Shown here in pieces: positions 21,777-54,675 of a stretch of 56,445 nt of DNA; positions within the stretch are counted from its first letter, which is position 1, and each line of letters starts with the position of its first letter. The DNA is from an uncultured Ectothiorhodospiraceae bacterium. GTDB taxonomy: Bacteria; Pseudomonadota; Gammaproteobacteria; XJ16; Halofilaceae. Position numbers and translations under genes: made by a program. The notes under the pieces are model-generated. The model had not been told where the DNA came from and searched no databases. It saw only the letters and a list, made by a program, of their open reading frames with translations. The DNA lies in contig CAJXKK010000018.1 in NCBI GenBank assembly GCA_913055615.1, positions 1 to 56,445 on the forward strand. Direction: 5' to 3'.

Positions 21777-21917
21777 GGTGGGTCTTCCCTGCGGTTCGTC
21801 GGGCAAATCGCAGGAGTATAGAGGCCGGTCCTCACCGCGTCCAAGCGCGACTTGTCCATGTGCGACCGAGAACTCACCGAGACCGCAGAGGCAGGGCGAA
21901 GGGCGACGGATTGTGTA

Positions 21918-22048
21918 GGCCGGCCTTCGCCGGCGTCCATCATGTTTCGGATGTGCGTCGGCATCTCCCGCCGGGGAATGCCGGCATTTCGCAGTGACAT
22001 GCATCCCGCCGGGATCCAGCGCCGCGGACCGCTCAAAGCCGGCCTACG
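21918..22048. repeat. Inverted GTAGGCCGGC repeats upstream of the aminotransferase
   Basis: GTAGGCCGGC at 21918-21927 is mirrored by GCCGGCCTAC near 22038-22048. The first arm continues into its own small hairpin (GCCGGCCTTCGCCGGC). This is a second, distinct family of intergenic palindromes beside the GCTTGCTCGCGA type. Related GCCGGCGAAGCCAGCCGGC sequence occurs near 20095. No open reading frame here looks real. Confidence 0.6.
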
Positions 22049-22056
22049 TCCCTCGT

Positions 22057-22110
22057 CCCTTGGCCCTCGCCCCTTGGCCCTTGGCCCTTGGCCCTTGGCC
22101 CTTGGCCCTG
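22057..22110 (-). repeat. Heptamer array (GGGCCAA) downstream of uppP
   Basis: Five perfect tandem copies of CCCTTGG occupy 22071-22105, preceded by two imperfect units and followed by a partial one. On the minus strand, which is the sense strand of uppP, this reads (GGGCCAA)n and starts 17 bases after the uppP stop. The spacing G3-N4-G3-N4-G3-N4-G3 fits the usual pattern for a G-quadruplex. A related array, (GGGCGAA)9, follows hemH. Confidence 0.92.
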
Positions 22111-52445: not shown

Positions 52446-53444
52446 GTGCAGACCGGCGCCGGCCGCGTGCGCCGCGCGGCCCCGGTCGCCCTGATCGGCG
52501 CGGCGCTGCTGGCCGGCTGTGCCGCGCCGCAGACGGCCCGCCTCGATCGGGATCCACCCGCTGACCTGCCGCCACGCGCCGAACTCGAGGCCGTCCCGTT
52601 CCATCCCCAAAAACGCTGGCAATGCGGCCCGGCGGCGCTGGCGACGGTACTCCCGCCCACGGCACGAGCCAGCGCACCGGCGGATCTGGTCGAGGAGGTC
52701 TATGTCCCCGAACGCAAGGGGACGCTGCGCAGCGAGATGCGCGCGGCGACCCGCGCCCGCGGACTGGTCCCGTACCCGCTGGCGCCCGAGCTGACCGACC
52801 TGCTGCGCGAGATCGCATCCGGGCGCCCGGTGCTGGTCATGCAGAACCTCGGGCTCGACTGGTTCCCGCGCTGGCACTACGCAGTGGCGGTCGGCTATGA
52901 CCTGGGCGATGAGGAATTGATCCTGCGATCCGGGACCACGCGGCGGCGTGTGACGGCCTTCACCGCCTTTGAACGCACATGGGCGCGTGCCGACCAATGG
53001 GCACAGGTGGTGGTGCCGCCGGATGAACCGCCGGCCACGGCGACGCCGCTGGCATGGCTGCAGGCGGTGCGCGAACTCGAAAGCACCGGCAAGATGCAAG
53101 CGGCGCGCTCCGGCTATAGCGCCGCGACCCGCCGCTGGCCAGAGGACACCGGGGCCTGGATGGCCCGGGGCAACGCCGCGTTCGCAGCGGATGATCCGAA
53201 GGCCGCACGCGAGGCTTTCCTCGAAGCGATCAGCCTGGCCCCATCGGAAACACCGGGCTGGAACAATCTCGCCTATGCACTGATGGCCACCGGGGACCAG
53301 GGCGCCGCCATCGAAGCCGCGGAATGCGCCACGCGCCTCGCCCCAGATGCTTCCGGCCCACGCGACACCCTTGAGGAGATACGCGGCGAAGCGGGCAACA
53401 TCCCGTCCGCTGAGACCGACCTCCCGCAGTGCCCCGCCGAATAA
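52446..53444 (+). CDS. PA2778-like C39-type cysteine peptidase with TPR domain, lipoprotein
   Basis: This 332-residue protein has a lipobox (LLAGC, Cys25), so it should be a membrane-anchored lipoprotein. A papain-like C39-type domain follows, with Cys60 in RWQCGPAALATVL and a His in WFPRWHYAVAVGYD. The C-terminal half (about 195-320) is made of TPR-type helices (ARSGYSAATRRWPEDTGAWM, DDPKAAREAFLEAISLAP). PA2778-family proteins pair with PA2779, as here. The substrate is not known. The start is a GTG. Confidence 0.84.
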   Translation: MQTGAGRVRRAAPVALIGAALLAGCAAPQTARLDRDPPADLPPRAELEAVPFHPQKRWQCGPAALATVLPPTARASAPADLVEEVYVPERKGTLRSEMRAATRARGLVPYPLAPELTDLLREIASGRPVLVMQNLGLDWFPRWHYAVAVGYDLGDEELILRSGTTRRRVTAFTAFERTWARADQWAQVVVPPDEPPATATPLAWLQAVRELESTGKMQAARSGYSAATRRWPEDTGAWMARGNAAFAADDPKAAREAFLEAISLAPSETPGWNNLAYALMATGDQGAAIEAAECATRLAPDASGPRDTLEEIRGEAGNIPSAETDLPQCPAE

Positions 53445-53490
53445 TGCGGCGGCCGCCTCGGCGGCGGACACCGCGCCCCGTCGGGTTTCC

Positions 53491-53553
53491 TTCGCCCTTC
53501 GCCCTTCGCCCTTCGCCCTTCGCCCTTCGCCCTTCGCCCTTCGCCCTTCGCCC
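53491..53553 (-). repeat. Heptamer array (GGGCGAA)9 abutting the hemH stop codon
   Basis: There are nine perfect tandem copies of TTCGCCC on the plus strand, 63 bp. On the hemH sense strand it reads (GGGCGAA)9, beginning at the base after the TAA stop. The G3-N4 spacing fits a G-quadruplex motif. It is the longer of two such arrays; the other follows uppP. Perfect copies suggest recent expansion and likely length variation. Confidence 0.95.
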
Positions 53554-54675
53554 TTACCTCTCCGCCCCAAGCGCCAACGCCCGCTCGCGACTCGCCTCGA
53601 ACGCCTCATCCGCGACCGGACCAACCGCCGCATCGGTCTCGGGCCAGCCGCGGCTGTGCCGCAGGACGATGTCCGTCAGCGCCTCGATATGGTCATCGCG
53701 GTCGTTGAGCGCGGGGATATAATGGAGTTCGCCGCCGCCGGCCTCCTCGAAGATCTCGCGGTTCTCGCCGCCGATCTCCTCGATCGTCTCCAGGCAATCG
53801 GCGGGGAAGCCGGCGCACATCACGTCCAGGCGCTTCAGTCCGTCCTTGCCGAGGGCCTCGACCGTCTCGTCGGTGTACGGCTGCAGCCAGGGCTCCCGGC
53901 CAAAGCGCGACTGGAACGTGATGCGGTATTCGCCATCGCCCAGCCCGAGGCGCTCGGCCACCAGCCGCCCGGTCTTGCGGCACAGGCAATGGTAGGGATC
54001 GCCGTTGAGCAGATAGCGCTTCGGCACGCCATGGAAGGACATCAACAGCAGGTCACCGCTGCCATGCTCGGCGCGATAGTCGCGCACCGATTGCGCAAGC
54101 GCGTCGATATAGCCCGAGTCATCGGCATAATGCTGGATCCAGCGGAACTCGGGGATCCAGCGCCAGCGATTCAGTTCCTTTGTCGTCGCCTCGAACACGG
54201 AGGCGCTGGTCGAACCGGAGTACTGCGGATACATCGGCAGCAGCACGATGCGACGTGCACCGGCCGCGCGCAGTTCCGCCAGCGCATCGGGTATGGATGG
54301 CCTGCCATAACTCATCCCGAGCGCGACCTTGACCGGACCGGGCGCGCGCGCGGACAGTTTCGTCTGCAGCGCGGCGGCCTGCTGGCGACTGATCGACATC
54401 AGCGGCGATCCGTCGTCTGTCCAGATACCGGCATAGCCTTTCGCTACACGCCGCGGGCGGAAACGCAGGACGATACCGTGCAGGATCAGGCGCCACTTCC
54501 AGCGCGGCAGCTCGATCACCCGCGGATCGGCGAGGAACTGGCCGAGGTAGCGGCGCAGCGCCTTCGGTGTCGGCGCCTCGGGAGTGCCGAGGTTGACCAT
54601 CAGCACGCCCGTGCATTCGGCGGAACCGTGCGCGTAGTCGGGCTCACTGACGTAACGGGAATAATCTTCAGCCAC
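53554..54675 (-). CDS. hemH: Ferrochelatase
   Basis: This 373-residue enzyme inserts Fe2+ into protoporphyrin IX as the last step of haem synthesis. GVLMVNLGTPEAPTPKALRR, the FHGVPKRY motif with the metal-binding His, and MCAGFPADCLETIEEIGGEN with the catalytic Glu are present. CRKTGRLVAERLGL and TFQSRFGREPWLQPYTD complete the pattern. The C-terminus is slightly longer than in E. coli. The stop codon is followed directly by a G-rich heptamer array. Confidence 0.96.
   Translation of the reverse strand: MAEDYSRYVSEPDYAHGSAECTGVLMVNLGTPEAPTPKALRRYLGQFLADPRVIELPRWKWRLILHGIVLRFRPRRVAKGYAGIWTDDGSPLMSISRQQAAALQTKLSARAPGPVKVALGMSYGRPSIPDALAELRAAGARRIVLLPMYPQYSGSTSASVFEATTKELNRWRWIPEFRWIQHYADDSGYIDALAQSVRDYRAEHGSGDLLLMSFHGVPKRYLLNGDPYHCLCRKTGRLVAERLGLGDGEYRITFQSRFGREPWLQPYTDETVEALGKDGLKRLDVMCAGFPADCLETIEEIGGENREIFEEAGGGELHYIPALNDRDDHIEALTDIVLRHSRGWPETDAAVGPVADEAFEASRERALALGAER

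Follow-up and report, generated by a model that had tools for sequence, protein, structure and literature searches.

The ferrochelatase gene hemH of this uncultured Ectothiorhodospiraceae bacterium is followed by a perfect tandem array of GGGCGAA heptads, a typical representative of a class of repeats that is known but unexplained. The array has no special tie to hemH, being one of more than 40 such arrays that stand behind unrelated genes in the same genome. The most economical reading, which is no demonstration, is that a heptad array has grown by slippage in a permissive 3' site that takes up REP elements as well, and that it has no function dedicated to hemH (probability about 0.6).

The array behind hemH

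The window, i.e. the whole stretch of 56,445 nucleotides that was analysed, contains nine perfect GGGCGAA units on the minus strand, reported by TRF at 53489-53555 with a period of 7, 9.6 copies and 100% match. The TAA codon of hemH lies on the same strand, the array begins at the very next base, and both the sense-strand sequence and the 3' UTR placement given in the preliminary description are exact. That description mentioned neither the position of the array between convergent genes nor the second array at 22053-22108 (Table 1), nor the more than 40 arrays of the genome. The product of hemH is identified as ferrochelatase by Pfam PF00762 (E 1.8e-113) and by the NCBIfam equivalog TIGR00109 hemH (319.7 bits, with a cut-off of 124.6). 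A chance origin of the array was ruled out by shuffles and reversed-pattern controls; two-unit matches with no more than two mismatches number 13 in the window, against a mean of 1.3 and a maximum of 5 in 100 shuffles.

Table 1. Features of the window around the two heptad arrays and the REP pair
Feature	Position	Strand	Remarks
Short heptad remnant GGGCGAAGGGCGAC	21894-21907		outside the other end of the REP pair at 21915..22047
GTAG-type REP pair (REPIN-like), GTAGGCCGGC...GCCGGCCTAC	21915..22047	.	directly 3' of the second array
Second array, GGGCCAA/GGGGCGA/GGGACGA, 8 units	22053..22108	-	19 nt after a same-strand stop codon
Convergent gene, PA2778-family C39-like cysteine peptidase with TPRs	52446..53444	+	stop 46 nt from the array end
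GC-rich palindrome GCCGCC-TC-GGCGGC	53452..53465	.	between the hemH array and the convergent gene; part of a stable predicted hairpin
(GGGCGAA)9 heptad array	53491..53553	-	abuts the hemH stop codon (0 bp)
hemH, ferrochelatase	53554..54675	-	TAA at 53554-53556; profile matches

Neither an intrinsic terminator, consisting of a GC-rich hairpin and a T-run, nor a promoter-like site was found within 53200-53800. The hairpin predicted around the palindrome beyond the array has no T-run and is therefore not an intrinsic terminator. Since the array lies outside the ORF and no promoter-like site is present in this interval, the phase-like variation proposed in the preliminary description is unlikely. 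A phase-variable contingency repeat, which would lie inside an ORF or promoter, was rejected, as the array begins after the stop codon.

The convergent arrangement allows a reading from the opposite strand. The C-rich strand, (UUCGCCC)9, would be transcribed only by read-through from the convergent gene, and it might then load Rho and halt antisense transcription into hemH. Rho sites consist of C-rich, G-poor, weakly structured RNA, and the RNA of this strand is C-rich, G-poor and predicted to be weakly structured (-2.6 kcal/mol); a convergent ORF is found within 500 nt of many other arrays as well. Convergence was, however, judged from GC3-supported ORFs only, and the idea is drawn from general knowledge of Rho. 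Such an insulator is very improbable.

A dispersed family with a period of seven

Heptads of this type are dispersed over the 3.0-Mb genome, where (GGGCGAA)3 matches 59 times and (GGGNNRA)3 152 times, with 0 matches to the reversed control in each case. Arrays of GGGCCAA are about as frequent as those of GGGCGAA, and a further heptad type, (GGCGGCA)n, which has no G3 tract, is abundant. Pattern searches and selected genome stretches yielded at least 44 distinct arrays on many contigs, with units GGGCGAA, GGGCCAA and variants, a number which is a lower bound. Twenty-seven of the 44 have their start near the stop codon of a same-strand ORF, in the range from 14 nt inside the ORF to 30 nt beyond it, an approximate count because the ORFs are GC3-supported and not annotated. 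The spacing of stop and units fits the 7-bp register in 12 of these 27 arrays (p = 1.5e-4). GGGCGAA and GGGCCAA are both free of stop codons in the sense frames, and growth of an array into an ORF would therefore lengthen the protein. The period of 7 dominates among the TRF repeats with at least three copies (18 of 24 rows), which were taken from three long and partly orthologous stretches, namely the window, one stretch of this genome (G000) and one of its sister (G002).

Repeats with other periods are also present. The window contains short period-10 arrays, CACAGATGAA and its inverse ATCTGTGTCC, arranged in inverted pairs at 26439-26466/26811-26841, 29959-29986/30362-30390 and 46484-46510/46577-46603, perhaps another composite repeat family, and a nonamer array of 6.8 copies, CGTCGTGTC, is located elsewhere in this genome (L195, G000 C11:71715-71775). 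Array lengths as read depend on the draft assembly. Contig edges fall inside heptad arrays at the starts of C4 and C48 in this genome and at the end of C2 in the sister, and draft assemblies therefore probably under-report the number and length of arrays.

The agreement of the hemH array with the standard quadruplex rule, pointed out in the preliminary description, is confirmed in the sequence, and ViennaRNA with G-quadruplex energies prefers two quadruplexes in the array RNA (-18.8 versus -10.4 kcal/mol); a G-quadruplex is thus possible on paper. Folded into one quadruplex or two, in the hemH mRNA or in the displaced strand, the array might set the 3' end of the transcript or shield the mRNA from 3' exonucleases, replacing the missing intrinsic terminator. 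The predicted gain of about 8-9 kcal/mol and the lack of a T-tailed terminator within 53200-53800 are consistent with this function, as are two findings of Rehm et al. 2015 (PMC4692102): CD evidence for G4 in related heptamers and, in Xac RNA-seq, a larger number of transcript ends close to G4-capable repeats. However, no clear regulatory role emerged from that study, and genus member G001 possesses hemH without the array. Moreover, arrays of GGGCCAA and of G3-free GGCGGCA occupy the same kind of site, and the same RNA model predicts a hairpin for (GGGCCAA)9. Quadruplex formation is therefore not a shared feature of the family; the feature common to the arrays is the 7-bp period, while the G-tract is optional. 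A quadruplex function at hemH is unlikely, and the effect on the ferrochelatase gene in particular that had been suggested for the array is not supported, given the more than 40 arrays behind unrelated genes.

Shared sites and REP neighbours

Among 56 sampled genomes, GGGCGAA arrays were found only in this species and in one sister of the same genus (G002), while a less strict pattern, six G3 tracts at a spacing of seven, detected arrays in 4 of the 56. The hemH gene is 95% identical in the sister and 74% identical in G001, the third genus member, which has neither an array after hemH nor any GGGCGAA array in its genome. Absence of the array after hemH in all relatives, which together with a missing quadruplex signal in vitro would have contradicted the preliminary description, is not the case, since the sister does carry one there. 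Its contig C2 ends in ...GAGAAGTAAGGGCGAAGGGCG, inside an array directly 3' of hemH, the full length of which is unreadable since the contig ends within it. Contig C3, joined to C2 by gene order and not by assembly, starts with AAGGGCCAAGG (GGGCCAA); 22 nt further on stands a 100-bp REPIN, which is separated from the convergent gene by about 95 nt. Thus, heptads are present at the hemH site in both species and a REPIN in the sister only; in this genome no GTAGG occurs in the array or in the 46 nt after it.

Further shared sites were found on syntenic stretches of C11 of this genome and C18 of the sister, which are about 83-93% identical at the DNA level in blocks. The arrays at these sites differ between the species in the number and type of units. 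One site has (GGGCCAA)5 and many GGCGGCA units without a REP in this genome, and an 11-unit GGGCGAA run with a REP in the sister. At a second, an additional REP separates the array from an older REP in the sister, and at a third the array is present in this genome only. At C11:26400 the same (GGCGGCA)-like heptads are followed by different REP families in the two species. The length variation anticipated in the preliminary description is therefore real at sites shared with the sister other than hemH, although a phase-variable character is unlikely.

The REP elements adjoin the arrays closely. In this genome GTAGG occurs within 150 nt downstream in 25 of the 42 usable arrays and within the same distance upstream in only two. 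The downstream heads lie within 25 nt of the array in 19 cases (19 of 42 arrays; p = 2e-10 for 19 of 25 against a uniform distribution over 150 nt), and in the sister a GTAGG head lies within 25 nt in 8 of 15 arrays. These heads are parts of recognisable REP palindromes of more than one type. REPINs carry GTAG facing outward at both ends, and both repeats favour small 3' gaps; the orientation of array and REP alone is therefore not evidence for an association. The tight distance is the stronger point, although a shared restriction to small 3' gaps may by itself account for the proximity of REPs and arrays.

Adjacency of this kind was observed in three species of two lineages. In G039, a small gammaproteobacterial genome of 1.5 Mb from an unrelated family, arrays of GGGATTA, GGGTTTA and GGGGTAA (L228-L236) lie just ahead of GTAG palindromes, with a few bases between, in about four of the eight cases that could be read. 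GGGTTTA and GGGATTA are the same word as plant-type telomere repeats. A GTAG REP beside the GGGAATC arrays of Xanthomonadaceae was sought and rejected, with GTAG within 12 nt in only 1 of 28. These arrays are accompanied by an RARAGC palindrome, located downstream in 13 of 28 and upstream in 1 of 28. A 33-unit GGGAATC array in a member of this family (L209, G385) adjoins a small palindrome, and its neighbouring units drift to GTAAATC, so that the G-tract is not retained there either.

Heptad arms and a palindromic core, a REPIN here and the RARAGC palindrome in Xanthomonadaceae, might also move together as one composite element, of which the hemH array would be a remnant arm. The adjacency in two lineages and the REPIN at the sister's hemH site are compatible with such an element, as are the inverted array pairs around a core, present within 250 nt in 19 of 28 Xanthomonadaceae arrays and at L015 and L023 here. 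However, an inverted partner within 400 nt was seen for only 4 of the 44 arrays of this genome, the same heptads are adjoined by different REP families, and most REP heads have no array (about 10 of 62 in 177 kb have one). Y1_Tnp genes are encoded by this genome and by the sister, some with REP heads around them, but no heptad array was found at the Y1_Tnp loci, which speaks against heptads that belong to the units of the RAYT genes themselves and further weakens the composite element, a decidedly unlikely alternative. Derivation of the heptads from the REP foot (CGTAGGC and CGAAGGG) was dropped as too weak, being a likeness by eye only.

In the slippage reading preferred here, the tandem arrays of a dispersed family would grow and shrink by replication slippage and be retained chiefly in the short intergenic DNA immediately 3' of stop codons, a place in which they are presumably harmless. 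The same niche would take GTAG-type REP/REPIN elements, probably moved by the Y1 (RAYT-like) transposases of the genome, and these would tend to land on the 3' side of an existing array, no more than about 25 nt away. The hemH site could then be seen as array plus REPIN in the sister and array alone in this genome. Slippage does not explain the presence of one unit family at dozens of unrelated loci, for which spread by transposition or gene conversion may be needed.

Relation to known repeats

The closest known system is the set of G-rich heptameric quadruplex repeats described in Xanthomonas (GGGAATC) and Nostoc (GGGGA[C/T]T) by Rehm et al. 2015 (PMC4692102). Those repeats are dispersed, located on the sense strand near stop codons, variable between species, sometimes arranged in inverted pairs and of unexplained function; no general association with mobile elements was reported. 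The hemH array is of the same kind, consisting of tandem heptamers with G3 or longer tracts over at least 14 bp; its family has many dispersed, mostly intergenic copies, and at the shared sites position is kept while unit number varies between related species. The differences lie in the unit (GGGCGAA/GGGCCAA), the lineage, the G3-free sister arrays and the direct adjacency to GTAG REPs, which was not reported there; no four-unit bias was noted here.

The elements adjoining the arrays share the GTAG head, palindromic body and paired inverted arrangement of the GTAG-type REPs and REPINs associated with RAYT transposases (PMC3733652, PMC2817692, PMC3116915), and Y1_Tnp genes, some of them surrounded by such REPs, are present in the genome. 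The hemH array itself, by contrast, has no palindrome and no GTAG, and was rejected as a REP or REPIN. Flanking heptad arrays are not described in these three papers; the word 'heptamer' occurs 0 times in PMC3733652, which by its own statement did not study flanking repeats in detail. The TAACTGA heptamer direct repeats of Beggiatoaceae, Cyanobacteria and Bacteroidetes (PMC4679880) are likewise intergenic, with many copies per genome and a gammaproteobacterial lineage among the hosts, but they lack a G-tract and lie mostly just upstream of start codons.

On a limited search of open papers, the association of heptads with REPs appears to be unreported. It can be proposed, tentatively, that heptad arrays and GTAG-type REPs belong to a single system in several bacterial lineages, in which the array or its exposed single-stranded DNA marks the edge at which a REP lands, or in which REP activity breeds heptads, giving the order stop codon, heptad array, a few bases, GTAG REP. 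The novelty lies in the setting. In two unrelated lineages, arrays made of different heptads stop just short of GTAG REPs, at a distance of a few bases, and G3-free arrays are found in positions of the same kind as those of G3 arrays. If borne out in a wider survey, this would tie together two abundant and unexplained classes of bacterial repeats, and the question would move from the function of the quadruplex to the reason for a period of seven and to the choice of sites by REPs.
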